From assembly GCF_021134715.1 (NCBI RefSeq), contig NC_060028.1, positions 6,842,501-6,906,500 of the forward strand: a DNA stretch of 64,000 nt, written 5' to 3'. A program made the position numbers and the translations under genes. Shown here piece after piece: positions 2,031 through 59,103 of this stretch; position 1 is the first letter of the stretch, and each line of letters starts with the position of its first letter. This DNA is from Daphnia pulex (lineage: Eukaryota; Arthropoda; Branchiopoda; Diplostraca; Daphniidae). The notes under the pieces are model-generated. The model was not told where the DNA came from. It saw nothing but the letters and a program-made list of their open reading frames with translations, and made no database searches.

Positions 2031-2862
2031 TAACATTTTGGATCGTAATTTCATTGTGAAATGACTACCTTAACAATTTAATTAAAGAATGCATTGCATA
2101 AGAATTGATTTTATTTGCCTTTTTTATTATTATTAAAATAAAAAAAAACGTTAGGGCACACTTAAACTTGTTTTATTTTCATGGTCAGTACCAGTAGTGT
2201 TCGTCTTGACTTCCTTTAGTCTTCGAAGATCTGCGCTTTCCTAAGCTGCTGTACCGAAGTTCCTTAATACCATGCTGATTCTACGTTTCACAGCATGATT
2301 ATACCCTCAGTTTGACACTTAGTCCATACACCTTTACAGTTTATCCATGGCTTCCTTACATAAAATTTTTTCTTTACGTACTTTTTTATAATTTTTTTTT
2401 GCAGATATTACATATTAATACGAAAATGGTTGTCAAAGAAGAGATTAACAGTAGAAAATTATTGTTAAAATTCAAAATTTGCATTGAGGTTTTGGTTTTG
2501 TAATTACATCTGGGCAAGAAGTAGCTATGGTTTGAAATTAAACTGGCTTAGTTTAGTTTGTTATTCTGCTGGTACACTAGCTTTAAAAGATCAAAATTTC
2601 CATTTGACTCGTTTTAACGCTGCACTCGTTTCTACTCGCCAGTTACTAATTTAATAGTTCTCATTTCTTCGTTTGAGATGGCCATAGTCAAGTTTTTGCC
2701 ACTACATGAATATAACCTATGCTTGCTTGTAGGTTTTTTGAATCCTGGTGAAGAAAGAAAAAGTAGACTTCCATTATTTTTTAGACCTATTCTATTGACA
2801 AATAGGTCAACTTCGACTTGGCTTTCTTTTGAGTACTTTTTTCTGTATTTAGCATTTATTTA
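2031..2862. other. No gene seen; AT-rich spacer
   Basis: AT-rich sequence with homopolymer runs and only short open frames without recognisable motifs. It separates the WD40 pseudogene from the next coding-like block. Confidence 0.5.
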
Positions 2863-3955
2863 AAAAGCCAAGTTGAATCGTTCAATATTACCGCCTTGGC
2901 ATCTGGAGTCTTTAAGTCGGCATATCTTTGGCCAAATGCCAATAATGACGATGGTTTGCCTGATAATAAAAGTCGCCTGTGCAGTGTAGCCGGAATCATA
3001 GATCAACTTAAAGATCTGTTATCCTGATGGCGAGCATTTATGTCTTTATTATTAGTTTAAGTTTTTCTTTACAACATTTCAATAGTTTGAAATTTAGGGC
3101 ACTCTTTTATGGCCATGAACCAAATTTGAGAGGTTAAAGGAAATTCGCTTAAAAAACATGCCTTTCACTTGTCATGAATGCCCAAAACAATGGTTGGCTG
3201 ATTTTCCAGTTCAGGTAGAAAACATTCAATTAAGTCTCCTTGTTTATATTTAATAGAACACTGTTTTAGATGACTGGGTTATTCATGAAAAAAAATATCT
3301 ATTCTTGTAGGGCATGTTTATTCCGGCACAATATGGAAAGGTGTTCTTATTATTGGATCTTTTAAATTGCAAAGTCCAGCCCATGCCAATCAGTGAGGGA
3401 AAATAGAGAAGTTCTGTAAGATAACTGTAAAACAGTTGTTGGTCGGCAACAGAACAATCTGAAAGCTGCCATGTTTTAGAATTGGGCTAATAAAGTTATC
3501 CTAAACCACAAGTTTATTTTTAAACAGCTTCCTGGACATTCTGATTTATATGTTGAAGAGTTGGTCACCAAAATATATTACCAGAGCTGCTCAGCCTTCT
3601 TTGTCAGCAGAAAAAACAGCACGAATAACGACATCAGAGCAGTGTCGGCCACTACGACGGCCAAATTCGTCGACCAGTATGATTCAATTGATTCAAATAT
3701 TATACACCACAGTCAGAGTATTTTGATTTAGTCGCTCGTTTTCTATTGCCGATGATCAAACGATTGCTACTATTACGAGATGAATTCTATCTCTTGAATT
3801 TTGATAGCCGGCGATATCAACAAAACGGCAGACTTGGAGAAGAGATTGCCAAGTGTTGGCTCTTTCGTCGTCGTCAGACGGGAGGATTCCCTGTCGGACT
3901 AGTATGGGCATGCGTGTCAAGATCACCAGGACATCAGTGTTTTTTTTGTGAGTAA
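2863..3955 (+). pseudogene. Remnant of an unrecognised multi-exon gene
   Basis: Several coding-like segments lie in order. One open segment is at 2863-3027 (contains ASGVFKSAYLWPNANNDDG, ends with TGA). Another near 3115-3213 contains FTCHECPKQWLADFPVQ and stops at a CAG/GTAGAA donor. A third begins after a TTCTTGTAG acceptor at 3310 (GMFIPAQYGKVFLLLDLLNC) and stays in phase with the previous one. A fourth follows an acceptor near 3527 (LPGHSDLYVEELVTKIYYQ). A fifth at about 3710-3955 contains FDLVARFLLPMIKRLLLL. In-phase splice borders argue that this was a real spliced gene. Stops close the third and fourth segments, so it looks decayed. I do not recognise the family. It might be part of the same locus as the WD40 pseudogene upstream. 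Confidence 0.4.
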
Positions 3956-5156
3956 ACTCGTAGCGTGATTCGTCTTTGGTGAATAAAGGAGAAGCAAGAA
4001 GATTGAAGACGAAGGCTTTATGGACAATGATCTTTAACCTCCTTAAAAGGCATTTGATTTTTGTTTAACTCAGATGAACACACGTCGTCGTATGTGTGGA
4101 TGAAAAACTTATATATGTAAGTATCGCTGCGATGGAGTAAACAAACGAAATAAAAATGAAGGACTGGATGAGAACGAAAATATTTTATATCAGTTGTTTT
4201 TGGATGCAAGTATAAAATATCCTTTTCGTTTCTAGCTTTATCGAAAAAAAATGGGGCAGTTGACAGAATGATTTGCCGGGAAATCTTAGACTACAAATAA
4301 CAAACAATTTGATTATGAAAACGGTCAATCAAGTAGGCAAACAATATATTCTTAATTTTTTTTGTGACGATTTTGGATTTAGAAAAGGTAACTCTGCTTC
4401 GGTCGGTGATATAGCTTTCATGCGTGGCTGGACGATCCACTTCATCCGTAAGACGTTCCAGCACGCATCCAGCTAAAAGAAGTAAGCGCTGTACATTGGA
4501 AATTTTCAATTGCATTTCAATTCACGCGCAACACCGTCTATTGGGCTTGTTTCTCAATAAAAATTTGATATTATGAATTTTCCACAAAAATGGGTTTTCG
4601 CATTTTTGTGTGATTCATTTCGAGCAAAGTATCGAATTATGTTCCCATTAGCCTAATTTACTAGTACCTATTCTAACGTTAAATAAATTGCAGCAGTTCA
4701 ATCCTTCATGGTTCTGGAGTGGGGCCACAAAAAGAATATTTGTCAAAAAAAAAAGAAAATAAGCTAAAAAGGGTGCAAAAAGGCCACAAGAACGCCAGCT
4801 GTTTTGGCCGGAATGGTTGTAAAGTCTTGCGCAAGTGATTTGGATGGACTCCTAAACCTAGGTAATTTTCTCTAATTTCACAATATAATATCATAATATA
4901 AATAAATTAAACATTTGTTTTTGGCAATAAAAATCGCAAATTTGTACATGCCGTCTTTGTATGCTACTTTCCGTGATTTTAAAAATTTTTTTCAACTTCA
5001 TTGAAAAAGCGTACAAGTACGTATCTTCCATAAAAATCCGACCACCCTTTTCTAAAAGAAATGCCGCCTATCGTTTCGCGGAGGAACTAAGTTCCCAAAC
5101 AGTGGAGAAACCAGACAGTAAGTTTTCCGCGGTTTTTCGAAGATTTTCTAGGGCTG
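3956..5156. other. No gene seen
   Basis: Low-complexity A/T-rich spacer. Short open frames on both strands overlap each other and carry no motif I recognise. Confidence 0.5.
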
Positions 5157-5769
5157 AATTGTCATAGTTACGAGACAGCCCTTAAGGTATCAAACTCAGC
5201 CTTTTTGAGAAGAGGTTAGGTAACGTTGCCGCAAGTAATCGAAAACAATTTTCAACTAGACTGCCCTTTTCTCTCAAACATGACGAAAAGAAGGTGGGGT
5301 GGTTGCTATAGCAACTTAGCACCATAACACGTCTTTGATTTATTCGCGCTCGTTAGTTGGATTGTTTTTTAACATTAAAGGGAATAGGCTGACATAAATA
5401 TTATAAAGTCTCAATATTTCGTCAGAATTTTTTGAAAAATGAATGCTGGTGAAAAAGGTGTGGTCGTCGTATTATGTTTTTCAGGACACATTCAATCAAC
5501 CTGTGTGGCAATTTAGCTGCAACAGATATTATCTGTCTAATTAATTTTTTCAGTTACTATAACTTTATAAATTGCCGCTTGATTATTAAAATTTGTCAGT
5601 TGCCATAGCAACCGGCCCTTCCTCATTTTCAGTCGGGTTGAGCGAAAAGGGAATTCTCATTGAAATTTTGTGTCGATGGCTTGCGGCAACGAGACCCAAC
5701 CTCTCCTTAGTATAGGCAATGAGATTAAGAGTTAAATGCCTTAAAGGCTGTCTCGTTGCCATGACAATT
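5157..5769. mobile_element. MITE/foldback element with long terminal inverted repeats and X-box-like motifs
   Basis: The ends are inverted copies: AATTGTCATAG at 5157 matches the complement of ATGACAATT at 5761-5769. Similarity continues inward for about 175 bases, with 'acgagacagcc' near both ends, 'gttgccgcaag' in both arms, and the palindrome-like GTTGCTATAGCAAC (5302-5315) opposite GTTGCCATAGCAAC (5599-5612). No protein is encoded. The family is unknown and no clear target duplication is visible. The 14-bp cores match the RFX X-box consensus, but they are part of a repeat. Confidence 0.65.
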
Positions 5770-6125
5770 AAGCATTTGAAAATCAATAAAAAAACTACCC
5801 CCCACCCTAACTGTCTGGTTATGGAGTTAGATGGAAGAGTTATGGAATTCTTCTACGTGGTTGTTTGTTTTGCGCATTTGCATAAATATAGACGAGTTTT
5901 TTAGTCCAAATAGAGCTATTAACCCAGGTGTTTTCTACATAAATGCAAAAGGATAAAAGATCAGAATCCTCTTCCATCTCAATTTGCTCTTTAATTTTAT
6001 AGAAACACTTTCTGATTTTCACAGCAGGGAGCAAATTTAAAGATAATAGTTGACGGCAGCATGTCTTAACACGAGAATCAGTTCGATAAGAAGGCCCTAA
6101 TCTAAGTTCTTACAAATGTTTAAAC
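5770..6125. other. No gene seen
   Basis: AT-rich spacer between a MITE and a transposase fragment, with no supported feature. Confidence 0.5.
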
Positions 6126-6326
6126 TTAGCTTGTCGATATGAAAAGCACATACCATAAGCTTGACATTATGCATTGAGGCATTATGCTTTTAAAACCTTG
6201 CCATACAGCCGCTTCAAAGTCAATGACAAATTCTTCAACCGCAGAAAATTGTTGCCCTTCGACCATCAGTAAATCCAAAATGTGTATGAACATAACTCGA
6301 TAATCGCAAGCCCTTTTTCGTGCCAT
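6126..6326 (-). pseudogene. MULE-type transposase fragment
   Basis: A 66-residue open frame contains EEFVIDFEAAVWQGFKSIMP. This resembles the segment of Mutator-like (MULE) transposases around a catalytic Asp, where the usual pattern is V-x-D-F-E-x-A-x-W-x-A-hydrophobic-P shortly before a Cys-x-F-H element. Upstream in the same frame, a Tyr/Leu-rich helix (FIHILDLLMVEG) fits the helix that precedes that Asp. The usual Cys-Phe-His after it is not preserved and the protein ends soon after, so this is a truncated relic. A full MULE transposase would be 500 or more residues. Confidence 0.5.
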
Positions 6327-6970
6327 AAGAAGAAAAACAAGGGGGACTTGGGTATCTAAATTGTCATGTCAAATGAATGCATGGATAGAATAAACTTAAT
6401 ACCAATAAGGTGATGGCGTAATGCCAAGTAGCGCCGTACCATCTTTTTGCATTGCGGAACAACTCTCGTTGAAGATCTGTTGCGAATATCAGATAGCTTG
6501 CGTAAGTACACTGAGTCTCCACCACGACATCACCACGATAGAATCCCGGTACGATGAATTCACTGTAGGTTTCTATTCTGTAGGCGGACTCTTGCAGCTA
6601 TGAAAATGTCTCTCTTCTACAAAGTCTTTGAAGAAGAAGCTCTGACATTGGAAAACAACTCAACCACATCAACACTCTCTTCGACGTTTGGATCGATTTT
6701 CAGTGTTGATGGGTTTATCTTTAAGGAATCTATAGAGAAAGGGCCGATAACAAAGCATTGCCACTCGTTGAAACATCGTGTTTTCAGAGCATCAGCTCAG
6801 AATTTCTCATTTTGATGAAGAAGGTATTCAAATCTCCTATGGTCATGGACGTCTTGTGCATTCCCGGCGTCCAGTGTTCTCTTGAGTGCCTTGCAGACCT
6901 ATGATGTTTAGTCACAATTTGTGAACCAATTTGAATTGTGTAAGGTGAAATTTTTCTTTTTTTCTTTAAA
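6327..6970. other. No gene seen
   Basis: Short non-matching open frames on both strands; nothing supported. Confidence 0.45.
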
Positions 6971-7172
6971 ATGTCTCGTGACGTGGCTCGTGTCGTGGCC
7001 CGAAGTTTGGAGGAAGAACTACACAACTTTCGAACAATCAAGTCTGGTGATGATTTGCAGAAGCGTGAACTCCAAGATCAGTTGGAAGCCGAGCAATATT
7101 TCTCGACAATATACGCAAGTGACCAAGCTGCGCGAGGTGGCACACAAAAAGCCCAAGCAATTTGGCGAATAA
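6971..7172 (+). pseudogene. Rho-associated kinase (ROCK)-like coiled-coil fragment
   Basis: The frame beginning with ATG at 6971 gives a charged helical stretch and then QLEAEQYFSTIYA. Just after it the coding signal moves to another frame, giving TQVTKLREVAHKKPKQF. Together these resemble the ROCK coiled-coil segment built on LEAEQYFSTLYKTQV followed by a charged helix. ROCK kinases act downstream of RhoA on actomyosin, and this segment is only structural coiled coil. One frameshift falls near 7110. No kinase, PH or zinc-finger part is present, so this is an isolated non-functional scrap, probably a gene fragment carried by repeats. The match is from memory of the family motif and needs a search. 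Confidence 0.5.
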
Positions 7173-7321
7173 AAGGACAAACGATTAAGTATTGCTCTAT
7201 TTATTATGTGGCATCATCGATTCTGTCAAAAAATGGAATTACATTTTCTTCCAATTCTTTGTGGCATTCCATCTACACAATTAAAAAATTGAAAGAAAAA
7301 TCATATTTAGGAAAACAGTAA

Positions 7322-8088
7322 ATTTTAATTCTTATAATATTTTGGACTTGTGGTGTAGTCTCCAGGACAACACATCACGTAAGCAATCCAGTCTTCTTTG
7401 TGGTACAGCACGGCGAAGATGTCCAATAGATACGCTAGTGGCGTTTCATTTTCATTTTCATTTTCAGAAGTACAGCAACAGATGCCTTTGTGCATGGTTC
7501 GACATGTGCACTGCCATTCCCAGCAAATTCCGCAACAATTCTCAATGAAATATTGAATCCAACATAATTGTGTGTATCTCTAAACAAATAGTTAAAATAG
7601 AGAAAAACCTGATTAAGAAACTTTTAAGCGTGATGATAGATTAAAAAAGTAATTGCATTTTTTTATTGATGACAAACTCTCTTAGGCGAACGAAAATGTC
7701 ACAAACAGCTATTTCTCTGAAATTCCTTGTAATTAATCTGACTAACATAACCGGATCAAATGTTAGGATACGGACTGGGCAGAAAAACAAAAAATTTCCA
7801 CTAAAAGAGTTTTTTTGGTTTCCAGTGTATATACATTTTCAGCAAATATTTTGTTTAAAAAAAATATTCGTTTCCAAACCGCAAGCCTTGTTTTGACAAA
7901 CTAAGCCTTTAGGTTGGGTAAAGAATTCCTTTTTTAACGACCATCGACGAATTTAGCTACATTAAATCTAGTAGTGCTGTTTTGTACGATATGATCAACT
8001 TTCCTACGATATGAACTCAACTTCAACTTTCGATATGAACTGACTGGGCAGTGCCAGCAGAGACCAATCCATGGGCACTTCTGCTGAC
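7322..8088. other. No gene seen
   Basis: AT-rich spacer. A (ttttca)n-like microrepeat lies at about 7445-7468. No supported coding feature. Confidence 0.45.
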
Positions 8089-8405
8089 CAGCGTCATCCA
8101 ACAGTATCAGATCACTACCACTGCCCCCTCCTTCTTCTTCATCCACTTCCTCCTCGTCACCAAAAATATCGCAAAACACGTCCGCTGCTTCCTCTTCTAT
8201 TGATAATTGTCCCCTGAACAATGGACACAACTTTGATGAGCCTCTTCTAATAGAAGACAACCAAAAAATTGTCGAAACTTTACAGAAAGTGAACATAAAT
8301 CACGATAGAAGCATATCACCTTTCCCAGTGCAAATGCAAACAAACAAACATATATCGGCCATGACCAGAGGTAATTTTAGCTCATCATCTTTTCGTGCTA
8401 TATAA
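8089..8405 (+). CDS. Hypothetical Ser-rich open frame
   Basis: An open frame without a clear ATG reads from about 8089 to a stop near 8405. It begins with a Pro/Ser run, continues as STSSSSPKISQNTSAASSS, and then a mixed segment (NFDEPLLIEDNQKIVETLQ) that has normal protein composition. It may be an exon of a disordered protein whose other exons are lost. The minus strand also has an open frame here, which is probably a shadow of the Ser-rich codons. The downstream DNA (about 8400-9115) is a set of imperfect repeats that may derive from the same locus. Function unknown. Confidence 0.25.
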
Positions 8406-9115
8406 GTGGAGATGCAACAGAGCCAATCACCACTCCAAACCAGACGAAAGAGTCAAGGGTCTTCTTGATCAAACGAGTACCACGCCGGAAGAAATCTACT
8501 CCCACACTCCAGCATCCACACACGATCATCAATCCAGTTTTTTAAAAAGGTTTTCATGCCAACGCCAACTCTAATTTTGCTCCTGGAAGTACGTCTAGCT
8601 CATCATTATTTCCTGCAGAGTTATCGTTCAATTGATGGCCATTAATCCTGCTCCAGTCCCGGATTACCTCCTTGGGCCACCACGATAAGCAATCCTCCCC
8701 CTGATGTAGCCGTATGTGGAAAGGGATCAAAGCCGGTCGCCAATCAGAAGGATAAGATGGACCAGGAAGAGTCGAGGGTTTCCTTTATTAAACCACTTCT
8801 TCCATCAGTACTATAACAAAAGTAATATTCACCCACACTTCTGCATCCGCAATACTCAATCGAAAACCAGTTTTTGATAATGGATTACATACAAACGCCA
8901 ACTCTAATCCTGCTCCAGCGTATCTTCTCAGGCCACCATGTTAAGCATTCTTCCTCCAAATGTAGCCGTAAGTGGAGATGGATCAGAGCCGTAGCCCCTC
9001 CAAATTAGCCGGAAGAGTCAAGGGTCTTCATGGTCAAACGAGTACCACACCGAAATAAAACTACTCCCACAATTCTGCAACCTCCGTATTCGATCGAAAA
9101 CGCAGTTTTTTTAAA
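8400..9115. repeat. Three imperfect tandem units of about 230-300 bp
   Basis: Blocks recur in the same order: 'gtggagatg.a.cagagcc', 'gaagagtcaagggtcttc', 'caaacgagtaccac', 'ccaacgccaactctaat' and 'tcctgctcca'. They are found near 8405-8590, 8620-8900 and 8920-9110. The units are diverged and contain stops in every frame. The origin is not clear; it could be a decayed repetitive coding region or a satellite-like duplication. Confidence 0.55.
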
Positions 9116-35189: not shown

Positions 35190-35943
35190 CTATGGAATAA
35201 ATACCTGCCTGAAGTTGCCTCATGGGAAGGAGACCAAGTCATAGCGATGGATCGTGTAAGAAAGTTGATTGCCCATCGCATGGTTGGATCTGAAAGAATA
35301 GCTCCCCGTGTGACCTCTTTTATACGGTTAGATGTAACCGATATAGTGGCTTATTGGAGAAAACAAGTTAAAGAGGCTTTCAAAATTCAATGTTATCTGA
35401 ACTTAACCTATTTTCCTATTTGTATGGCTGTAACGGCACGTGCTTTGCAAGCCTTTCCATTACTCAATACCATCGTTGAAGACGATTATTGGTTTTGCGG
35501 TAGCTCTACAATATGGTAAAATGATCGTTCCTGTAGTCAATCAGGTAGAATCATTGGATTTCGTTGCCCTAGCAAGACAAATAGATGCCTTAATTAAAAG
35601 AGCACAGAGTGGTAGCCTTACGGGCGATGAGCTAAATGGAGGTAGTTATACCCTTTTTCCAATATTGGCTCTTTCGATAACCTAAGGGGTACATCCATTA
35701 TCGTTCAACCACAAGTGGCCATTTAAGTCTATTGAAAGCTATTGAAAGGAGGCCCGCTGTAGTCGATGTTCAAGGGAAAGAGACCATAGCCATTCGTGAT
35801 GAAATGTTTTTATCCCATACCTATGATCACCGCATCATAGATGGGGCCATTGGGGGAAACTTTTTAAAATACCTGGCAAAAACATTGAATCGTTCTACTT
35901 TTAAAGACTATTATACCCAAAAAAGAAAAAAATATACTATTTA
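35190..35943 (+). pseudogene. 2-oxoacid dehydrogenase E2 (dihydrolipoyl acyltransferase), catalytic domain
   Basis: The E2 subunit transfers acyl groups from lipoate to CoA in pyruvate or branched-chain 2-oxoacid dehydrogenase complexes. Visible in order: YLPEVASWEGDQVIAMDRVR, KLIAHRMVGSERIAPRVTSF (start of the catalytic domain), ARALQAFPLLNTIVEDD, IGFAVALQYGKMIVPVVNQV, GDELNGGSYT, SNIGSFDNLRGTSIIVQPQV, and the active-site region SHTYDHRIIDGA (catalytic His and D-G). The lipoyl and linker domains would lie upstream and are absent. Frameshifts occur near 35490 (with loss of about 8 codons), 35655 and 35725. The intact motif order shows it was a normal bacterial gene before insertion. Confidence 0.85.
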
Positions 35944-36137
35944 AGGCTATTTGATTATTTTTTCGTATCTAGTATCCCAGAGAGGGTATGTTGTAATAAC
36001 TTCTCCTCTATACAGTTTCTTGTTTTTCAGTTATGAAAGACTTTTTGCAGCATTTTTTTCTGTAAGGCAAGTTTTGAAACCCAAATTATAAGCAGAGGTA
36101 GAATGATGCAAAAAATCTAATGATTAAACAGGTATGT

Positions 36138-36722
36138 ATATGGCACATATAAATCGAAAAGTTCTAGCTTTTTACCCGTCTGGTTTGTTCCATCCTTTTT
36201 TGGTAGCCTCTTGTAAGAAGAACTATTTCTAATACAAATTCTCCACCTTTCAATGTACAAGAGGATTGTTCTGCCGTTCCATCATCTGTTTATAAAAGAA
36301 TGGATGCACAACCCAATCAACAATGTAGCAGTTGTTGTCAAATATTTCCTAGGAGTGACCCTAATGAGCAACTGATTTACAAAGAACATGAAAACTATTT
36401 TAAATGTTCACTGCTGCATATGGCTTCTAGGGAAGGGTATACAAAATTGGTAAAACTACTTGAAATCGCTTCTTTATAAGCCCGGATTGATGTTGTTGAT
36501 CAGCAATAGTATACGCTTTTGCATTATGCCTTATTACAAGGTCATTTGGATGTAATGGATTTGTTTATCCAATCTAAACAAATAGATATCAACTATAGGG
36601 ATAATATGAAAATAGCCTACCTACCTGCATATTGCGTCGTTGCTTTATCGACTACAGGTAGTGAAATTTCTGCTCAATGTTCATGGTATATGGTAACCAA
36701 CTATGGTCAATCGCAAAAGAAT
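36138..36722 (+). pseudogene. Ankyrin-repeat lipoprotein
   Basis: From ATG at 36138 the start resembles a lipoprotein signal with LVASC near residue 24, the usual lipobox layout. After a frameshift near 36229 the frame continues with a Cys-rich stretch (QPNQQCSSCCQIFP). It then gives two ankyrin-like repeats, CSLLHMASREGYTKLVKLLE and YTLLHYALLQGHLDVMDLF, the latter followed by DINYRDN. Stops occur between the repeats (TAA near 36476 and TAG near 36508). Ankyrin proteins are abundant in intracellular Bacteroidota and are often host-interaction factors. The last 40 codons (after about 36600) lose the repeat pattern, suggesting a junction. Confidence 0.7.
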
Positions 36723-36743
36723 TAGTCCCGTTGAGCTGGTTGC

Positions 36744-37545
36744 ATTTTGAGGCCTACTCAGATGCTATTCTTATGGTCTATAAGCCACCGGGTTTTACTT
36801 CTTTTGATGTAGTATAAAAGGTCCGTTCTCTGTTAAAGCTAAAAAAGATAGGTCATGTAGGTACATTATATCCTTTGGCCTCAGGCTTACTGTTGCTTTT
36901 TATCGACAGGGCCACTAAATAAATTAGTAGCCATCACGCCCATCAGGAACTCAATAAGGTCCGTCGTACTTTGGATAAGGTGACTTCAACGCCGCACTTT
37001 TCGCAAACGACGCCCCAACTATTTCCTGCCGTGAAAAAAATCTCCGAAAAAGGCGGCATAATCCGTTCCCTTACATTGACACAGGGAAATGAAGCCGAGA
37101 TCGCTCACAATAAAATCGCTAAACATTTCCGTTTTAGGAGAGATCTTCCCCTTCTCTGGATTCTTGGCGCAGCGTCTCGACCGTCTCCACACCCTTTTGG
37201 GAACCTCTCTGATTGTTCTCGGAATCATTATCGCGACAAGAAGCTATATATACCGACCATATTGTACTGGGTAAGACCACTTTCTCTATGGATTTAGAGA
37301 CGCCTTTTGATAGCCACTGTAGCTATAGCCACATCGATAGAAGCATGGTAGAGGTTGCAGCAGCTTCTATTGTGGGCACTATAGCTCAGATACCCCCAAT
37401 GCATTTAGCTGTTAAGGTGAAAGGAGCAAGAGCTTATGCATTGGCTAGAAAAGGCGATAGACCTGAACTGCATCCTCGTTCTATTGTGATTCATTCTTTT
37501 TTCAGTTTTTGACATCAACTTACCTTTTATTGCGTTGAATTATGA
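36744..37545 (+). pseudogene. truB: tRNA pseudouridine-55 synthase, interrupted
   Basis: TruB makes pseudouridine 55 in the tRNA T-loop. The first part (36744-36925) reads AILMVYKPPGFTSFDVV and KIGHVGTLYPLASGLLLLF. The family motif here is GTLDPLA-x-G, and the catalytic Asp is a Tyr in this copy. A stop precedes KVRSLL. About 300 bp of unrelated sequence (36935-37235) interrupts the gene. The second part (37236-37545) resumes with YTDHIVLGKTTFSMDLETPF, HIDRSMVEVAAASIVGTIAQ, IPPMHLAVKVKGARAYALAR and PRSIVIHSF. It then runs on in another frame (FDINLPFIALN). The loss of the catalytic residue, a stop, an insertion and a frameshift make it clearly dead. Confidence 0.85.
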
Positions 37546-37739
37546 ACAACAATTTCCGAAGTTTTCGAAGATGCGATTGAATATCTAGAAAATTCAGATT
37601 TAGCTGTGCCAAATGATCTGGTATGAATGGTTCGGGATGAATGGTTAGGGTTCTGATTCTGGTTCCAGTGTGCGTACTCAGCATAAACCAGTGCTTGTTT
37701 CAGATCCAACAAATCAAGTGAAAATTTAAACCGTTCTAC

Positions 37740-38100
37740 CTATACCTGTTTTACTATCATGTTAGCCATTATAGTAAAACATCCACAAGTAGCCATAGAT
37801 TGGGAGATGCTGTTATCGTATATTTCACAGATGTAGAAACGTCCATGCGACTGTATGCAAGTTTGAAAAGGGGGATTGGTCTAGCACGTGCTACTAGAAA
37901 AAGTATTTTACTGGCCCGTCTAGCGCAAGGTGATCTGAATCAGCTTATTATAGATACAAGCCAATTCACGGAAGAAAGTATGAAAAAATTACCCGGGATC
38001 ATTTTTTTCTTTTCTTACAAGTGAGCATCCATTGTTTAATTATACAAGCAGTAGCCTTCCCCTAGAAATTCCCTATAATCATCGGCCTATATGTCTTTAT
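37740..38100 (+). pseudogene. Unrecognised bacterial-type ORF 1
   Basis: Coding signal runs from about 37755 (LAIIVKHPQVAIDWEMLLSY) into the frame at 37800-38024 (ETSMRLYASLKRGIGLARAT, QGDLNQLIIDTSQFTEESMK). It then shifts to another frame (LTSEHPLFNYTSSSLPLEIP) up to about 38100. Composition and lack of introns fit the surrounding bacterial DNA. I do not recognise the family; it is probably an endosymbiont hypothetical protein. At least two frameshifts are present. Confidence 0.5.
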
Positions 38101-38134
38101 CAGCTGAGATGGTTGGTGGAAAGGTAGTGTTTTT

Positions 38135-38780
38135 TTGAAAAAAATGAAGGTGTTTACAGGTAGCATAGAAGAAGATGTATTGCCGATCCCCAACCAGGAG
38201 GAATGGAATCTGATGCGGAAGCCTTTGGTATCGAAGTTTCCTGCGGATGATTTACATATTGCTTTCATGCATCAAACTTCGATTAAAGATGATTCGCTTA
38301 ACTTGATCTTTTATTATATGGTGGAAAGTCCAAATCCAAAACCCATGTTTGCTGATGAACAGGAGGTTATGGATGGCCTAGAAGCATATCTATCTCCGAT
38401 CCAGCTCAAGAGGATTTGGTGTGCAGGGTTGAAGGTATCGGAGGTACCTGCTGTTTATTTATATTATTCAAGTTGTACGCAGCAGGTTACCTTTTATGCG
38501 GGTTCAGATGGGAGTGTGCCTACACAATGGGTCTATATCAAGCCAAAACATGCCGATAGAGGAATCTTAAAAAATCAGTGTTCACTATGTTGAACCGGTT
38601 GTGCCTAAAAAGAAATCTGCATTTAAAAGATGGGGATCAGCTAGATGTAAAAGAATTGGATCTAGTATTGATAACTATTTTATGAGATGTACCTGTATAA
38701 GCAGGCAAACTGATTCAGATGGTTCATCTAGTGATGTTTCTCCATGTATTAAAAGGCATAAACTTAAGCATTAAAAGAAG
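38135..38780 (+). pseudogene. Unrecognised bacterial-type ORF 2
   Basis: An open frame of 152 codons (38135-38593) is followed, after a frameshift near 38577, by about 60 more codons (VHYVEPVVPKKKSAFKRWGS ... CIKRHKLKH) to a stop near 38780. Its residues include VLPIPNQEEWNLMRKPLVSK and AGLKVSEVPAVYLYYSSC. No domain is recognised. It lies downstream of the other bacterial genes on the same strand, and the last coding base is about 155 bp from the transposon boundary. Confidence 0.5.
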
Positions 38781-38930: not shown

Positions 38931-38934
38931 TTAT
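38931..38934. repeat. Target site duplication, left (TTAT)
   Basis: TTAT directly left of the transposon end matches TTAT at 46315-46318 directly right of the other end. Because the terminal bases are ambiguous it could also be read as a 3-bp TTA duplication. Confidence 0.6.
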
Positions 38935-38939
38935 CCCTA

Positions 38940-39360
38940 GCAAAGTTTTTGCGGGTGGGATCCCGTGTTGAACTGGTGTGGCTCTCCGGTGTAAAGTGTG
39001 ATACTGGTGAGTCACACTGGTGTAACACTTCTTGTTCGCGTGATATGGAGCGAATCACACCGGTATTCGTTCTACAGTTCATTCTCTTTGTTTGTTTTTA
39101 TTTGGTATAGTTTTGTAATTTTACCCGAGAACGTTCTGGGAATATACACCCGTTTAAACCTCAATTTTGAACTAGTGTTCTCTTCAGTTTTGTTACTCAC
39201 GCTTCTAAAAATAAATGGTGCTCCACACCAGTACCAAACCCTTTCAATTTACTTGTTAATTATTCCAGTTTCAAACCCATCCTATATACTGGTGGGTCGT
39301 TCCAGTTTCAAACTGTTCAGTTGCACTGGTATACCACACTAGTTCTTAACCGTTGCAATC
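38940..39360. repeat. Subterminal motif cluster of the transposon, left
   Basis: Copies of ACTGGTG/CACCAGT and related CACACCGGTAT motifs recur near 38969, 39002, 39015, 39056, 39224, 39288 and 39323 in both orientations. In CACTA-type elements such subterminal repeats are transposase binding sites; that role here is inferred. Confidence 0.55.
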
Positions 39361-39663
39361 TTAAGTTGACACTTCACGGGACCCAACCTCGCAATTTGCA
39401 AGAAAACAAGTAATGTCTCATTTAACACAAACTTAGTTGAATACTGGCTAGTTTATTTTGAATCACACCGTAAAATTGAAATAATAATTGGAATGTAGTC
39501 AAACACAATAATAAATAACGCTATCGCCAGGGAGTGATGGACTGATACAGTCCATTGGGTCTCCAAAATATAAATGGAAAACAAACAAAAAATGACTTCT
39601 CGAGGTGCGAAAACCGGAAATCCGAAAACCAAGCCACATATTACATGTCAATAGTATAACACA

Positions 39664-41759
39664 TTAAAGGGTGAAATTGTTCACTAATATTTGCAGTCGA
39701 TCAATGTGTTGTTTTAGTGTAATCCCATCGTTATCTTCAATGTTCGGTCCTGTTGGAGCGTCAATTACAACCTCATCTTGTTTGTTATCGCGAGAGGTGG
39801 CACGATATTCGCGAGCGTGCGTTTTCCTAGCATCGCGTACAAGCTGCTGGATTCGGCCCTCATTTAATTTTTCTCCTTTCTTCTGAGCAAAAATCCTTGC
39901 GGCCACTAAATTGCATGGAAAATATGTAAGTTAAAATTTTCGAAACAATTCTGACAGTCATTACGTTACCTCCGAAAACAGCCAACAAATTGAAAAGGCC
40001 AGCCATTCCAGGCCTGTTATCTCTGCCCCTTGGGCTCATTTTCCACTGCAAGCTATTGCTGACATCCTTTGCTACCAGGAAGCCCAACATCTGATAGAAA
40101 AACTTGTTAACCGTTTTAACTGTTTTCAGTTTTTCGACAAAAACAAAAACCTGTATCATTGAAAATTGAGATAGTAAATGGAAATAAACGTAAGTAATTA
40201 AAACACGTATACTTACAAGGCTTACTGCCAAAGTGTTGTCTTGCAAAAGTACATCAATGGCTTCCACAGCCTTCGTCGTCGTTACTGGTAATTCTTTTAA
40301 GTACGTTTCTACCACAGATGTATGATGATCAAAATCAGTCTCTGCCATTTTGTGGATTGCAACTTTACGCATTTTTTCAATTTTTTGGTCTAATGCCTCC
40401 AACTTCTCCACGATTAATAGAAAGTTTGTCGACATTTTGGCTTCAATGGCACTAATTCCATTTTCAACACAGGTTAAGCGTTCAAGGGCTTGATGAAGAA
40501 CATGCTGGAGCATCCAAGATGGCTCCCTGGGAGGACCTGAACAAAGAATGATTTTAAATAGCATTAAATGTTGTTGATATTCTCAAAGTTTCTTAGTATT
40601 AACACCACTGTAACAGATAACACTCACCTCCACTATTAGATGAAGATGTAGAAGGACACAGTTCCAGAGTGTCTAAGTCCATTATTGTTTTATCGGGGAT
40701 TGGTGTTCCAACTTGTTCCATCGTTTCATCCGGTTGTTCAAGCCAAGTTTGTTCAATTGGTGCTGATAAGTCCCCTGTTACATATATAATCCAAATTTTA
40801 AAAACTTTAAGTACATGTACATTGCATATCAATATACCTTGATTACTGTTGTAATCATCATGACTGTTCCAGTTATCTGCAAGGTGAGGCAACACTACAT
40901 TGTCAATGACGTTGTAGTTATCTAATTCAGAGGAACTTGATTGTAAATCTTTATCGTTGTCGGCCTTGGCCAGACTAGTTGCTGGAACGGCCATCAGTTC
41001 CTTTTCCTCAGTTGATTTTTTCACTTTTCTCTTCTTGGGCTGCTCCATTTCGGCGTCTTCTAAAACTTTTTTTCTTTTTACTCGGTTCCCCCGGCCTAAT
41101 GACTCATCATTATCAGACTTGAGCAGATCTTCAAAATTCTTCATGCCTTTAGATGCTGCGGTTGCAGCCTTAAAGATCCGATCATGACTCCCTGAAAGAG
41201 GATTAATGCAACAAATTAAGAATATCACATGCAACGTAATATACTCAAGATTTTTCTGTTTTACCTGGTTTTACTAAATTGAAAATTTGCACAATGTCGT
41301 ACTCAAACCAATCTTTCGTTGGATAACGAAACCTTTTAAAAACATTACTTCTCCATTGATTCGGTTCTTGATGTCTTCCGTTTGCAGAATGTGTCCCAAC
41401 GGGGGGGTATAACATGAACTTCATGCACACGGAAACCCAAGTTGTTGGAACACAACTAAAGAAAGCTTTTTCTTTAAAGTCTTCGTCTGTTTCTACAGTT
41501 TTGACCAGGTAATACTTCAAAGAGTTAAGGTTGTTCTGGGCACTTTCCTCACTCGTTTGTTCCAGCCTATGCTCGCCCTTCCAGTGAAGTTGCAATCTAC
41601 CCACCTATTACAGTAACACAATAACTTTAGCATATGTTTGAAAAAAAAGTTGTCATACAGTAGTAATACCTGGAAAGCACAATAACTAACGGGCGTCACG
41701 GCACTAGTTAATAACGAATCCTCTCCACCATTTTCTATCTGAGCACTTTTGCTGACCAT
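39664..41759 (-). CDS. DUF4806-type transposon protein, seven exons, intact
   Basis: Exons on the minus strand: 41759-41670, 41604-41265, 41191-40838, 40774-40628, 40536-40217, 40150-39970, 39905-39664. All borders are GT/AG and all phases fit, giving 557 residues without a stop. Exon 2 holds the N-terminal module (EKAFFSCVPTTWVSVC, MLYPPVG, then DWFEYDIVQIFN), as in other DUF4806 proteins. Exon 3 has likely nuclear signals (NRVKRKK and QPKKRKVKK). Exon 5 has a coiled coil (LDQKIEKMRKVAIHKMAE). Exons 5-6 give the C-terminal domain (LPVTTTKAVEAIDVLLQDN; KDVSNSLQWKMSPRGRDN). The role is unknown; pairing with a transposase suggests an accessory or DNA-binding function. It is divergent from the transposase gene, 492 bp apart. 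Confidence 0.8.
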
Positions 41760-42251
41760 TACTTATATCCTACTACGAACAAACAATAACTCGTTATAGC
41801 ATCTTTGATTTCACTTTAAAAAAAACACGGGTACATTTCTAAAAGTAAAGGGGCAAAACGACAGGTTATAAAACTTATTATGTGTTTAATTACCAGATTA
41901 TACACCAAACTAGAAAACCACGCTTCGAACTTCACTTCCATACAAAAAATATGATGAATTCTGTCTGCTCTTTCAAGTTTCACTAGACCATGCGTAAAAA
42001 AACAAAAGACGGATGGTGTGCGTATCCATCAAAGCATTAGCCCTGGTATCCATGGTTACTACGTCAAGTCGTCTGTATCTCCTGAAAACTGCGCAGTGCG
42101 AGAGTGCATGCTGGAAGCTGTTACAAGCTCTTCATTGGAAATATTTCCCCATAGGTAATAAATAACTACATACATATGTTTTTGTCTTATCTTAAATTAT
42201 ATCGTCTTTGTCTGTGTGAATGCAGTGTCGCTAAGAAAACATTCAGACGAA
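41760..42251. promoter_or_regulatory. Shared divergent promoter region of the transposon genes
   Basis: The 492-bp region between the two start codons must carry both promoters. It includes a TATAAA-like sequence on the plus strand near 41867. A likely 5' non-coding exon of the transposase gene ends at an ATAG/GTAATA donor near 42154, joined to an acceptor at TGAATGCAG near 42225. No other element was identified. Confidence 0.45.
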
Positions 42252-45200
42252 ATGGAAGATATTGCAGCAAAATTAGGTGACAAGGAAGTTGACGAAATTC
42301 TTCTCGTATGTGGAAAACAGCAACGTAAAAGAAAAAGGAAATTAAACCATTTGACACCAGAATACCACAAGCGACTGAAAACAACAGCCATGAAGGAACT
42401 TCTTATTTGGATGGCTACGGGAGTTCCTGAGAAGTACATGACACACTTAGTTTCACTATCGTCTGGGTTGCCTCAGATGTTTGGACTGAAGACCCAAGTT
42501 TGTTTATCGGAAGCTAATGTTATGGAAAACCCAACAACACCTGAACATCTACATGAGCCAACTCCCATCGTGCAAATGGTATTAATATTTACAGTGATTG
42601 CCGTCTTTCTGATGACTTCTATTATGCATTTGTATTTTATACCAGGAAGAAAGCTGCATTATTGAAGAAACTGAGAGACTTATTAATTTAAGTGAATGTA
42701 CTGAAGAGCCACAAACTAATAATGACCAAGCAGTGTTTCGTCTCCCTCTTGGTAACATTCACATGATTTGATTCATACCAAATTTGAGCATAATTAGTAA
42801 TAAAGCATTGTTAAATTAAATATGGATTCATCCTCGACAGATAAACAGCAATCAAATGAAGATGAAGATTTATTTGAAGGGACACCGGTGATTAATATTT
42901 CTACCAGTTCTGCGCCAATTAACAACAAACCGTTGTCATTTAAAAGAGTTCTTTGTCATTGGGCAGCCAGTACCATGCAAAAGAAAAGCCACCTCACTTA
43001 CTTGCTGGAGTTGCTCAAAGAGCATAGACCCCCTATAGATTACGATGCCTTGCCATCTTCCGGCCAGCAATTGATGTACATCGACGGGCGTGATGTGCCC
43101 CATTTATCTTCTACGACAGAACAGGACCCACCTAGGTAATTTTGAATGGACATATCGTGCAGTACGTATATTTAAAAAAATATTGTGTTACAGTCAAAAC
43201 AGCAAGAATGGGAAAAAACACCGATTGCCACCCGTCGTTGATTTAGATAATAAAGGAAATGGGAGGTACACTCACTTCGGTCTTGAATGTGCATTGGCCG
43301 GAGACTCTCCAGGATTATATCACCGCCATGCAGATTTATTGCAATATGCTGCTATTTACAAAACAAATCCAAAAGCCCTTCCACTATCTATTCGAAGAAA
43401 GGTACATATTTGTTTAAAGTGCATGTATGCCTTCCCTCCGCATTACTTTGTAGCAATGCGAGGAAGTGGATTAAATAGATTATGGATTTCATTATTATAC
43501 AGCTTAGGTTACATTATAACTGTAACTTCATTTTCCCCTCTAGATTGAGAAACTTAATCCTGAAGCGGAATTCGAAGCAGCCAAGCAGTTACTTAAAGGA
43601 GATACACAACACCCAGATGTCGATACCGCTTTGACAACGAACGTCCCACATATTGTAATTGATGCGAGCTGTGATGGCGTCCTTTTTTTTGAGAACTCCG
43701 AGCAAGCAGAATGCATTCCTCTATGTGTGATTGTACATTCAGTAAGCGAGAGTTGCGATCCATCACGAAGCAAGCCTATCTTATTACAGAAACGTTCTCC
43801 TATAATCGTTGGTGTTGCTCACTGCAAAGAGAAGCCAGATGTTAATTCGTTTTTATCTGCCTTCATTGAAGAACTGACAAGACTGGATCCGAATAACGAC
43901 GGCGATACTACCTTAGGCCGCCAATTCACCGTTTCCATTCGTTGTGTCATCGCTGACTGGCCAATGCGGTCGTATTTAAAAAGGGTAAAAGGTCATACAG
44001 GATACTGGAGCTGCGAGCGGTGTGTGCAGTGTGGTGTTGCGTGTGACAATCATTCGAATCAGAGAAATTCAAAAAAGAAGAAGAAAAAAACAATTCAGTT
44101 TTTAGAAGTGAACGCCCCTCGTAGAACTAACGAAGACTTTCTGACTTATATGAAATCTGACGACTGCCTTGACGAACATCTTAATGGACTTCACGATCTC
44201 AGTCCATTTCTGAAATGGAATTTTCCGATGGTGTCCGGTTTTGTTGTAGAATCCATGCATACATTTTACGCTGGGTGTGTAGGCGGAAGACTCAAGGGTA
44301 TTGCCGGAAAAGCAAACGAAGGTAAATTGAGCGCATCACAACTTCTTCAAGTTGATCAACGGTTAAAACTCTTTGAAAAATGTAAACCTTGTGAATTTGA
44401 TAGGCATGTCAGAAGCCTTAGCAAGTGCGCTAAGAAGTACAAGCATCACGAAATAAGAGATATGCTTATGTACATTTTGATTCCGGCATTTTGTGGGATC
44501 TTGCAGGATGAGCACTTAGAAAACCTTTTATTGCTTCAGTATTCCATGTTGTTGATCGGTGGTTTTGCCAACGATCCAGTCTCCCACGACAATATAATGG
44601 AAGCGTCTCGAGTTTTGAAGATGTATGTTGAGCAACTGAAACATTTCAAGTACCCGATCCGACCGACTACTCACTTATCGTCACACTTACCGGAAGATGC
44701 GTTGAATCATGGGTGTGGGGTGGAATCATTAAGTGCGTTTGTATTCGAAAACTTCTACAGATTTTTCCGGAATATTCTCGCTTCGGGAAACCTGCCGTTA
44801 CAACAGATAAGAAATAGGCTTGTTGAAAGATCAAAGTACTTGCTGCCAACTTCTGCTGACGGAATGATCATAAATTCTTCAAAACAATTTGAAATTGAAG
44901 TGAAAAAATTAGAAGCAAAGCACAGTGGCCAAAAGATAGTAGTAAAGTTTGCTCAATGGAAAGGACTGAAGAAAATTGTGTTCCCTGATTTTGTGCTGAC
45001 TAATCAATATCCGAACAATGTCTGTTTATTAAAAAATGGAAGTGTTATTGTTTGCTGCGATTTCATTGAGTTTCCGAAGCATAGCAATAATTTTCTGATT
45101 GTTGGTTTCTCATTTAAAATAAAAGAAAATGCTTGCGTGCAGCCCTACGTATCAAGCAGATACAACACATTTATTGTATCGCAGTTGGACAATCGCATTA

Positions 45201-45343
45201 ATGAATGGAATTTAAATAACTTACTTTGCAAAATGTATACTATTCCTTATAAGTTGATAGACTATTCCAAGTTACCTGACATTACCCTGCCGAATGTGCG
45301 CAACAGATGGTTTGCTACTCCTATCCGACACACAATCTCATAG
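42252..45343 (+). CDS. tnp2-like (CACTA/EnSpm-related) transposase, five exons, intact
   Basis: Exons: 42252-42578, 42646-42751, 42841-43135, 43194-43401, 43544-45343, all GT/AG with matching phases, giving 911 residues. Residues 1-110 are basic and then helical (KQQRKRKRK). The last exon holds the catalytic part: VIDASCDGVLFF (candidate first Asp near residue 352/356), CVIADWPMRSYLKRVKGHTG (second Asp near 450), the zinc-binding-like GYWSCERCVQCG, then HDLSPFLKWNFPMVSGFVVE and SHLPEDALNHGCGVESLSAF (candidate Glu near 706). The 'KGHTGY-x-x-CE(R/K)C' signature is typical of tnp2-like transposases. No lesion is seen. AATAAA lies at 45424-45429, about 80 bp after the stop. I chose the ATG at 42252 because the upstream exon does not splice in frame. 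Confidence 0.85.
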
Positions 45344-46314
45344 CCACAAAAGTAAAAAAATGTCTCCGTAAGTGAATTGCCGTGTACATTTCGTCATTGG
45401 TTGATGTGTATGACACATTTGGAAATAAAAGAACACAATTTCTTCCTGTAATGTAGTTTCTCTGCTATCTCCAGTATTAAAAAGCATTCACTTTACATCT
45501 GCACATGAATCATTTAAATTTGCGCGCCTTTCAATAGACGACATAAGAGCAATAAAATAGACAGTCGGAAACACAACATGTGTAAAGCGTATTAAAAGCA
45601 TTATTTAACGTGAATTTGAAGTGAACGTGTGTGCGTCGAGGCTCACGCGAGTTCCATTCCGGTGTAAATATAGCTATGCCAACCACAAACACAAATCCAG
45701 GAAAATGAATTTCAGCGTACAAAACCAGTTTTCAACGCAGATGACAGTTTCCGTGATAGCTTTACGGCCTGTTATTTTGATGCCATATTATTAAATCGTC
45801 ATCGCGGAAAATGTGGGTTTAAACTAGAATTTCCCCCGTATGAGCACGGCGTTATACACAAAGAAATGCGTAACGGTTGCTCAATGTGCGACACCGGTAT
45901 GAAACTCCTATTTCCCCAATAAAATTCTTACACATTCTTATACGGATATTAACAGTTTTTCAATCCAATTTAGTACGCAAATAGTTCTAGTGTCACACAC
46001 CTTAAAAAATCTCTAGAAAAAAGTTTAAAATTCCTGTTTCATGGTGCACTGCACTTGTGTATAACGCTGTTCAACCTGGTTTAAAAAAGGGACATGGACG
46101 AAAGAAAAAAACACGTGCTTCAAGCTGTGTACTGCGGGGATAGTAACAGTATAAAACGCAGTTTTAACACGACAACTGTCGAACACATTTTCAGCGAGGA
46201 TTTCTATTACCAATTGACCGGTTCGTGAAGAACACCCACTTTGAACCAGGAATTAAGGGTTTCAAATAAGTGTTTTGCACCATCCCAGGTTAACACCGAA
46301 AATCTTTGCTAGGA
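45344..46314. other. 3' and subterminal region of the transposon, right side
   Basis: Non-coding. It holds the polyadenylation signal, CCGGTGTAAA near 45659, GACACCGGTATGAAAC near 45892, and several AACC(T/A)GG motifs toward the terminal repeat at 46304-46314. Confidence 0.5.
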
Positions 46315-46318
46315 TTAT
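46315..46318. repeat. Target site duplication, right (TTAT)
   Basis: Pairs with 38931-38934. Bacterial sequence resumes immediately after it. Confidence 0.6.
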
Positions 46319-46333
46319 GTACCCAATTGCAGT

Positions 46334-47001
46334 ATGAAAATCAACCATATGCTTATTGCTAAGGACATATGTAAAACGTATGATCATGCTCCTATTATTC
46401 AAAACCTGAGCTTATCCATTCAACCAGGAGAAATGGTCGCCATTGTAGGGCCTTCTGGTGCTGGAAAGACTACGTTGCTATATCTGTTGTCTATCTTGGA
46501 TCAGCCAGATAGTGGCTCCATAGTATATGAGGTTATAGAGGTAACCCAGCTAAAAGGTAGGCGTTGGCTAAATTTAGGAAAATAGGTTTTGTATTTCAAT
46601 TTCATAACTTGTTGCCAGAATTTACACTTTTTGAAAATGTTTGTCTGCCTTGTTATCTGGGCAATTTCCATAAAAAGGAAGTAGACCAAAAAGCAGGTGA
46701 AATATTGACTTTACTTGGGTTGCACCACCTGAATCATCGTTTTCCAGCCGATGTGTCTGGGGGAGAACTCCAACGTATAGCTGTAGCTCGGGCGTTGATC
46801 AATAATCCGGCTATTGTTTTTTCCGATGAACCGAGTGGTAGCTCGGATGCCAAAAATGCATCCCGGTAACACGATCTTTTTTTCCGAATGTTCTAAGGTT
46901 TTCAAACAATTTTTGTAGTCATAACCCACAATCACACTTTAACCACCAAGGCAGATAGGGTTTTGTGGCTTAAAGATGCTGATGTAAAACATCCCACATA
47001 A
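46334..47001 (+). pseudogene. lolD: Lipoprotein-release ABC transporter ATPase, frameshifted
   Basis: LolD powers extraction of lipoproteins from the inner membrane (LolCDE). The frame from ATG 46334 has the Walker A motif GPSGAGKTTLLYLLSILDQP. A frameshift near 46565 follows, then KIGFVFQFHNLLPEFTLFEN (Q-loop and the LLPEFT signature), the ABC signature VSGGELQRIAVARALINNP, and Walker B AIVFSDEPSGSSDAKNA. The usual 'GNLD' is changed to 'GSSD'. A second break near 46870 is followed by the H-loop VVITHNHTLTTKADRVLWLK and a stop at 46999-47001. All nucleotide-binding motifs are recognisable but the frame is broken at least twice. It is the first gene of the bacterial segment after the transposon. 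Confidence 0.85.
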
Positions 47002-58641: not shown

Positions 58642-59103
58642 CTAGACGTCGAGGACGTGGTTGAGATATCCAATGTAACAGATTGCCAACCGGAGGATCT
58701 CGATCTTGGAGAGTTTCTTGTCCGGTGGAAGAGTGGGAAGTAATTTTCTTAGATCTGCGAAAGCTGAATTGAAGGCCTCTACGCGAACACGCTCCCGAGA
58801 TGCGTGAGCTGAACGATATTTAGGTGTAGCCCTCCGTCGGCGTCTTCGCTCTTCTCGACTTAGCGTCACTCCACCTGTCGCCCTTAGACCCCTGTGTTTG
58901 ATAAGTAATTGATTAAGAAAAACATTTTGTTCATTGCACTTTGGTAAGAGGCAATGTTACTTCTTTTTTAATGGTTTTTCGTCTTGATGGAATTGAACGT
59001 AAGTATTGGATGGCGGGATAGAAGATGACGTCACGGTGTTAGTCTGCAACTGGACTTGAAGCCCTGGGTCCGGCCCCAGATGATGGTGAGACATGTAGCT
59101 CAT
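58642..59103 (-). CDS. NHLH: NHLH-type bHLH transcription factor (HEN/HLH4C family)
   Basis: Two exons on the minus strand: 59103-58961 and 58891-58642, joined in phase, giving 130 residues, close to the 133-135 of vertebrate NHLH1/2. Residues 1-47 are a short leader ([14 protein letters not shown]). Residues from about 55 read [20 protein letters not shown], then [20 protein letters not shown] (basic region and helix 1), [20 protein letters not shown] (loop and helix 2) and [11 protein letters not shown] at the C-terminus. The end immediately after helix 2 is a hallmark of this family. It binds E-boxes as a dimer and acts in neuronal differentiation (family knowledge). The frame is intact. 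Tail-to-tail with TMEM223. Confidence 0.92.

Follow-up and report, generated by a model that had tools for sequence, protein, structure and literature searches.

What kind of genetic unit is formed by two intact genes that diverge from a common intergenic region amid broken sequence, and what could be the task of the one that does not encode a transposase? The question is raised by a locus lying within a stretch of 64,000 nucleotides of the Daphnia pulex genome (hereafter the window; NCBI RefSeq assembly GCF_021134715.1, contig NC_060028.1, positions 6,842,501 to 6,906,500 of the forward strand), for which an original prediction, made from the sequence alone, had proposed a complete and young two-gene DNA transposon consisting of a transposase gene and a divergent DUF4806-type partner. 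With moderate confidence, we hold that the locus is a complete, recently transposed cut-and-paste CACTA element of the animal TRC type, whose divergent partner gene most likely supplies a nuclear DNA-binding accessory protein, comparable to the TNPA part of plant En/Spm.

The extent of the element was established by end-to-end alignment with a second full copy, found at C5:3322.9-3330.3k in scans covering the 133-Mb assembly (13 contigs). This copy is 99.8% identical to that of the window over its whole length, has the same two ends and lies between different flanks; the transposon so delimited is 7,379 bp long (window 38935-46313), and of the boundaries initially proposed (38935 and 46314) the left one holds while the right one is placed at 46313. 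The two copies differ by 12 substitutions in 7,379 bp (0.16%), which change one residue of the transposase and three of the partner; in both copies the two genes are open and all 10 introns begin with GT and end with AG. The flanks of the window insertion matched only themselves in a search of the same genome. The transposon is intact and has moved recently, and it may still be active. A full-length copy with the same ends and other flanks, on which the original prediction had staked itself, does exist, and its reading of five and seven exons free of lesions, with 492 bp between the two start codons (41760-42251), was borne out.

The ends of the transposon read CCCTAGCAAAG, in inverted orientation, and the right end of the C5 copy reads CTAGGG followed by AT. 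The motif CCCTAG is present at both ends of the C5 copy, and several related copies have it at their left end. The insertions are accompanied by 2-bp duplications: AT in C5, GT in a 1.5-kb non-autonomous copy in C3 (L049), GG, inside a G run, in a C11 copy (L026), and AT in the window provided that its right end has lost one terminal G. The first base of one end is altered also in the C3 and C11 copies.

The transposase displays its catalytic signature in the fifth exon. In an alignment of 23 rows (the window and 22 of 24 homologs, P0021 and P0022 being excluded, with some rows partial and P0024 loosely aligned) D450, C469, C472, H693 and E714 are invariant, and D356 and H689 are conserved in at least 90%. 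The N-terminal exons have their counterpart in the D. magna protein P0004, which covers predicted exon joints and so supports the gene model, and the named relatives returned by the protein search are from D. magna and, in one case, D. galeata. In the accessible part of a published study, a signature composed of DDE, C(2)C and H(3)H is given as common to the CACTA/EnSpm-Mirage-Chapaev-Transib group (PMC12730594), and it is on account of this signature that the transposase is assigned to the CACTA/EnSpm-Mirage-Chapaev group. The 2-bp duplications of the C5, C3 and C11 copies fall within the 2-5 bp of CMC/CMCT elements, and the CCC termini and 2-bp duplication that distinguish animal TRC elements are found at both ends of the C5 copy and, for the termini, at several left ends.

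The proposed check with hidden Markov models for Transposase_21 and DUF4218 did not return the window transposase, which matched neither in Pfam searches at E <= 5 (HMMER filters removing most matches above about 0.1), and the window was not among the matches of a genome scan with PF02992. Among the 23 members of the alignment, Transposase_21 was found weakly in four (best E 0.0011), DUF1258 in five and DUF4218 in one (E 0.0029). When the PDB was searched, neither the alignment of the transposase nor that of the partner found a credible counterpart; two hits with E of about 4e-5 were rejected, being designed TIM barrels with no stretch passing alone. In viral contigs, 61 and 52 pattern matches were obtained, none of which was confirmed as a relative.

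To the extent that the literature was accessible, elements of this kind are familiar. The animal TRC elements (SmTRC1 and those of Tribolium and Aedes; DeMarco 2006, PMC1636069) belong to the CACTA superfamily and share with the window element terminal repeats starting with CCC and a 2-bp duplication, their transposase being tnp2-like, as that of the window appears to be; the Tribolium terminus begins with CCCTAG, and a 2-bp duplication accompanies 7 of 14 SmTRC1 copies. Ten CACTA families of D. pulex, CactaA1.1-A10.1, assigned to the same superfamily by their terminal repeats with reference to the TRC paper, are on record (Schaack 2010, PMC2884549, in the portion available), and the accessible part of a study of D. 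magna mutation-accumulation lines records one loss event of CMC-EnSpm (PMC8594854). Given the TRC-like traits and the CACTA families previously listed for D. pulex, the transposon itself is of a known kind. The difference lies in the second gene. Animal CACTA elements have been described from their transposase, and in the TRCs alternatively spliced transcripts of one unit are reported, one of them with a second open reading frame; a divergent second gene is not mentioned in the accessible part of that paper (PMC1636069), nor any second gene in that of the D. pulex survey (PMC2884549). A literature search on a divergent second protein in animal CACTA/EnSpm elements found nothing within a scope outside which lay Repbase and subscription journals, so that the pairing may have been published.

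The case for a functional connection between the two genes is made by the recurrence of the pair. In genome-wide searches 84 transposase matches were clustered, exon-wise, into 44 loci (an undercount, 73 of 174 transposase candidates having been scored) and 40 partner matches into 17 loci. A related transposase locus is found no more than 5 kb away from 12 of the 17 partner loci, against 0.06 expected from the 44 loci, a figure that is a lower bound but would remain far below 12 even if a few times larger; these counts take in broken copies and duplicates (three within 50 kb in C11; a 97% copy of C8:7769k at C8:114k) and overstate the independence of the loci. Ten of the 12 linked pairs are divergent, and in eight of these the matched stretches are spaced by 1.5-2.1 kb; when the window and C5 copies are left aside, 10 of 15 partner loci are linked, eight of them divergently. 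The linked partners are between about 26% (C4, C7) and about 76% (C9) identical to that of the window, and at such distances the pairing is old. Outside D. pulex, the records of the D. magna genes LOC123469643 (transposase) and LOC123469645 (partner) each give a contig of 19,071,972 bp, and this species probably has the gene pair, adjacency being judged from the gene numbers. Since the same pairing is met in distant relatives, the partner probably functions as a component of the transposition machinery; the joint role in transposition, for example in DNA binding, that had been proposed for the pair would be consistent with this recurring linkage.

The rates of change of the two genes point in the same direction. 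Between the window and the C9 copy, which is broken, synonymous divergence (dS) amounts to 0.89 in the transposase and 0.79 in the partner, and the ratios of non-synonymous to synonymous divergence (dN/dS) are 0.35 and 0.41, respectively; between the window and a C11 copy, where synonymous sites are saturated, the proportions of non-synonymous differences (pN) are 0.297 and 0.295. Judged from these comparisons, the two genes seem to evolve together within the element, and the dN/dS values fit with purifying selection on both proteins in the lineage.

Related transposase copies also form local clusters (C5:3874k, 3888k, 3903k and 3916k; C11:6250k and 6282-6297k), the C5:3874k and 3889k copies having nearly equal scores suggestive of local duplication or nested insertion. 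Separately, two segments (L024 and L025; C2:6921-6931k and C2:7565-7575k), mostly 95-97% identical with one stretch at 90.5%, contain the same broken transposase copy and so probably represent a segmental duplication and not two insertions.

What, then, is the partner? A protein search with its single sequence returned one protein; the alignment-based search, in which 7,997 candidates sharing most words were scored, returned 18 homologs (P0025-P0042), several of them from Daphnia. The D. magna homolog P0025, which lacks one internal stretch and the C-terminal end, shows 60% identity to the spliced partner over the aligned portion and, by covering predicted exon joints, supports the gene model; the D. 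pulex fragment P0037 is 91% identical to part of the partner. None of the 18 homologs has a precomputed Pfam domain. As to the DUF4806 domain ascribed to the partner at the outset, PF16064 matched neither the window partner, at E <= 5 and under the same HMMER filters, nor two diverged partners of the genome, nor the 18 homologs, nor three C-terminal fragments, and its genome scan returned a single place, C11:6211k, the window not being listed. The 52-amino acid DUF4806 fragment encoded at C11:6211k does align at the C-terminal QWK...LAVFG stretch of the partner, which is the expected place, with hhalign probabilities (0.5% and 1.4%) that are not significant. The DUF4806 label is accordingly plausible but unproven, and the chance that the partner is a true DUF4806 protein, derived from a captured or ancestral BEN-superfamily gene, falls in our estimate a little short of even; such a descent would be compatible with each of the functional explanations considered below.

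A stronger clue, if an indirect one, than the DUF4806 alignment comes from a second young CACTA family, represented by copies at C7:6377.3-6383.4k (L031, C7:6374500-6384400, 2804-8893) and in C8 (L032), 6.09 kb long and 99.1% identical, having CCCAGGT... ends and a 2-bp AG duplication in both copies. Its transposase is a 783-amino acid tnp2 frame scoring above Pfam's Transposase_21 cut-off, and the joined C-terminal exons of its divergent gene match the BEN domain PF10523 (E=2e-5, above cut-off) as well as the solved BEND6 domain (chain 7yul, E=1.3e-6). The two families are alike in their CCC termini, 2-bp duplication, apparently tnp2-type transposase and divergent second gene, whereas they differ in that the partner of the second has a BEN domain and the transposases are only remotely similar. 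A DNA-binding, TNPA-like partner is favored because this second family has a divergent BEN gene and because DUF4806 is reported, in the accessible part of a published study, to be a BEN subtype (PMC11075544).

A candidate target for such a protein is offered by the left end of the element, where the motif ACYGGTG occurs six times in 727 bp, against 0.26 expected from shuffling. When nine left ends were aligned (the window, C5 and seven diverged copies), looser repeats were found at shared positions, one to four per copy. The enrichment must be regarded as suggestive, the motif having been picked by eye and an unbiased count being no higher than in shuffled sequence. Apart from this, at a locus in C4 (L028, C4:8010500-8018000, positions 2860-3737) three left ends like that of the transposon follow one another in tandem, spaced by 399 and 392 bp and each accompanied by the same flank; a non-autonomous end may here have become a short array.

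Taken together, the DNA-binding partner could operate as follows. The transposase, with its DDE triad and a C(2)C/H(3)H motif that probably binds zinc, would cut at the CCCTAG termini, leaving a 2-bp duplication; the partner would recognize the ACYGGTG-type subterminal repeats and would help the transposase to assemble both ends and/or would regulate the shared promoter, as TNPA does in plant En/Spm. TNPA binds subterminal repeats, and the plant system resembles the one described here in having two element-encoded proteins for transposition and subterminal repeats; on the other hand, TNPA and TNPD arise by splicing from a single transcript, whereas the window element has two divergent genes. 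Another precedent is PIF/Harbinger, a two-gene cut-and-paste element that encodes a transposase and a Myb/SANT protein; it is alike in its two genes and presumed DNA-binding partner and differs in the transposase superfamily and in the partner domain. According to the accessible part of the TRC paper, TNPA and TNPD are both essential for En/Spm transposition and TNPA acts on its own promoter (PMC1636069); the partner of the window element may be needed for its transposition.

Several observations weigh against a DNA-binding partner of general occurrence. The window partner has no Pfam domain, DNA-binding ones included; it matches neither PF10523 nor a solved BEN structure, and its profile comparisons, whether with the DUF4806 fragment or with the BEN sequence of the second family, are not significant. 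A BEN partner was found in one CACTA family only: the PF10523 genome scan gave six hits, none of them, by eye, within 5 kb of a transposase locus (a scan that is insensitive, since the BEN gene of the second family itself escaped it), and a literature search on the BEN domain in connection with CACTA, EnSpm or transposase had no "BEN domain" among the matches listed. At a third tnp2-type locus (L033), inspection by eye of the long frames revealed no obvious divergent partner. The ACYGGTG motif occurs once at the right end (0.14 expected) and as one palindromic site in the interior; it was not singled out by an unbiased count of 7-mers in both ends, the best of which had five copies against a mean of 5.25 for the commonest 7-mer of shuffled ends, and in related termini shared repeat positions are partly expected from common descent. 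The linkage is not universal either. Divergence is lacking in two of the 12 linked pairs, one being convergent (C11:6282-6286k) and the other same-strand (C8:109-116k, where the partner is the 97% copy of that at C8:7769k), and the expectation that the genes would be found together in related elements, which holds in the main, does not extend to five of the 17 partner loci and 32 of the 44 transposase loci, at which the other gene was not detected within 5 kb. Many of the partner-less transposase loci are fragments and the partner is near the detection limit; the gap is nonetheless real. Among five such loci inspected in the DNA, a weak but collinear partner was recognized at C9:5921k where one would be expected (hmmsearch E 0.14 and 0.47, and by eye), the 2.4 kb inspected at C2:11805k are filled by transposase exons and other repeats, and no partner was seen in the DNA inspected at C2:6924k and C2:7568k (mutual duplicates) and C3:3662k.

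These points leave room for other explanations. The partner might protect or regulate the element by counteracting silencing or by self-repression, exerted at the shared promoter and on host chromatin, an alternative that we judge rather unlikely. Passenger enzymes thought to counter silencing, namely TET/JBP in fungi, are reported for the same wide group in the accessible part of PMC12730594, and the action of TNPA on its own promoter is a further point in its favor; the occurrence of ACYGGTG at the left terminus and its absence from the 492-bp shared region suit the binding of ends better than that of a promoter, if the motif is indeed the partner's putative target. Far less probable is that the partner derives from a single capture of a host gene and has been retained by descent without any role. 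The transposase loci devoid of a detectable partner agree with this idea, which is disfavored because a gene of no use to the element would be expected to decay more rapidly than the transposase; instead, the pair has stayed linked over the whole range of partner identities given above, in several lineages and probably in D. magna, and the partner's dN/dS of 0.41 was obtained against a decayed copy. Finally, two unrelated genes adjoining by chance, or a single-gene CACTA element beside a host gene, are ruled out by the fact that two near-identical copies, differing in their flanks, both enclose the two genes within the same termini, and by a pairing far above chance.

The surroundings of the insertion have a history of their own. 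On both sides the flanks look like broken bacterial genes (window 35190-38600 and 46350-47000): the open reading frame 46561-46869 matches an ABC transporter ATPase and 35190-35519 a 2-oxoacid dehydrogenase acyltransferase, for which a search of bacterial genomes, able to detect close relatives only, gave 80 pattern matches and a single confirmed locus, located in an Amoebophilaceae metagenome bin (74% identity). The open reading frame 38141-38590 had no relative in the bacterial genome collection, nor in the Amoebophilaceae bin, the latter search being without a positive control. From these matches, endosymbiont DNA likely became part of a Daphnia chromosome long ago, and the transposon inserted there afterwards. 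The statement that everything around the element is decayed fits these immediate flanks; farther away, at 58642-58956 (minus strand), the window holds a stop-free open reading frame with a bHLH domain (Pfam HLH, E=4.2e-20), which probably belongs to a host gene close to the decayed DNA. The coordinates of the element and its parts are collected in Table 1.

Table 1. Parts of the transposon, with positions in the window
Feature	Position	Strand	Basis or detail
Complete transposon, 7,379 bp	38935..46313	.	C5 copy 99.8% identical, other flanks
Left target site duplication, AT	38933..38934	.	2-bp match also in C5, C3 and C11 copies
Right target site duplication, AT	46314..46315	.	Assumes loss of the terminal G at the right end of the window copy
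Left terminal inverted repeat, CCCTAGCAAAG	38935..38945	+	End comparison across copies
Right terminal inverted repeat, CTTTGCTAGG, with one G fewer than in C5	46304..46313	-	C5 comparison
Left subterminal repeats, ACYGGTG	38972..39294	+	Starts 38972, 39003, 39016, 39058 (minus), 39226 (minus), 39288
Partner gene, 7 exons, 557 aa	39664..41759	-	One open frame; D. magna P0025
Partner exons	41759-41670, 41604-41265, 41191-40838, 40774-40628, 40536-40217, 40150-39970, 39905-39664	-	
492-bp region between divergent start codons, presumed bidirectional promoter	41760..42251	.	Gene models; promoter function inferred
Transposase gene, 5 exons, 911 aa	42252..45343	+	One open frame; D. magna P0004
Transposase exons	42252-42578, 42646-42751, 42841-43135, 43194-43401, 43544-45343	+	GT-AG introns
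Transposase exon 5, catalytic core D356, D450, C469, C472, H689, H693, E714 (protein numbering)	43544..45343	+	23-row alignment

If the element belongs to a known kind of transposon, what is new is the recurring divergent partner gene. The two intact, near-identical copies and their diverged relatives provide a defined two-gene element in which the need for the partner and its target are directly testable. A broader proposal, which we entertain tentatively, is that animal TRC-type CACTA elements are two-component machines requiring a divergent DNA-binding protein of the BEN superfamily (BEN or DUF4806-like), a counterpart of TNPA of independent origin; if this were true, many of the orphan genes for DUF4806 and BEN proteins in animals would belong to transposons or descend from them. 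For the partner itself, the present findings suggest a function, namely DNA binding in transposition, for a fast-evolving family without Pfam assignment that is possibly a branch of BEN/DUF4806.

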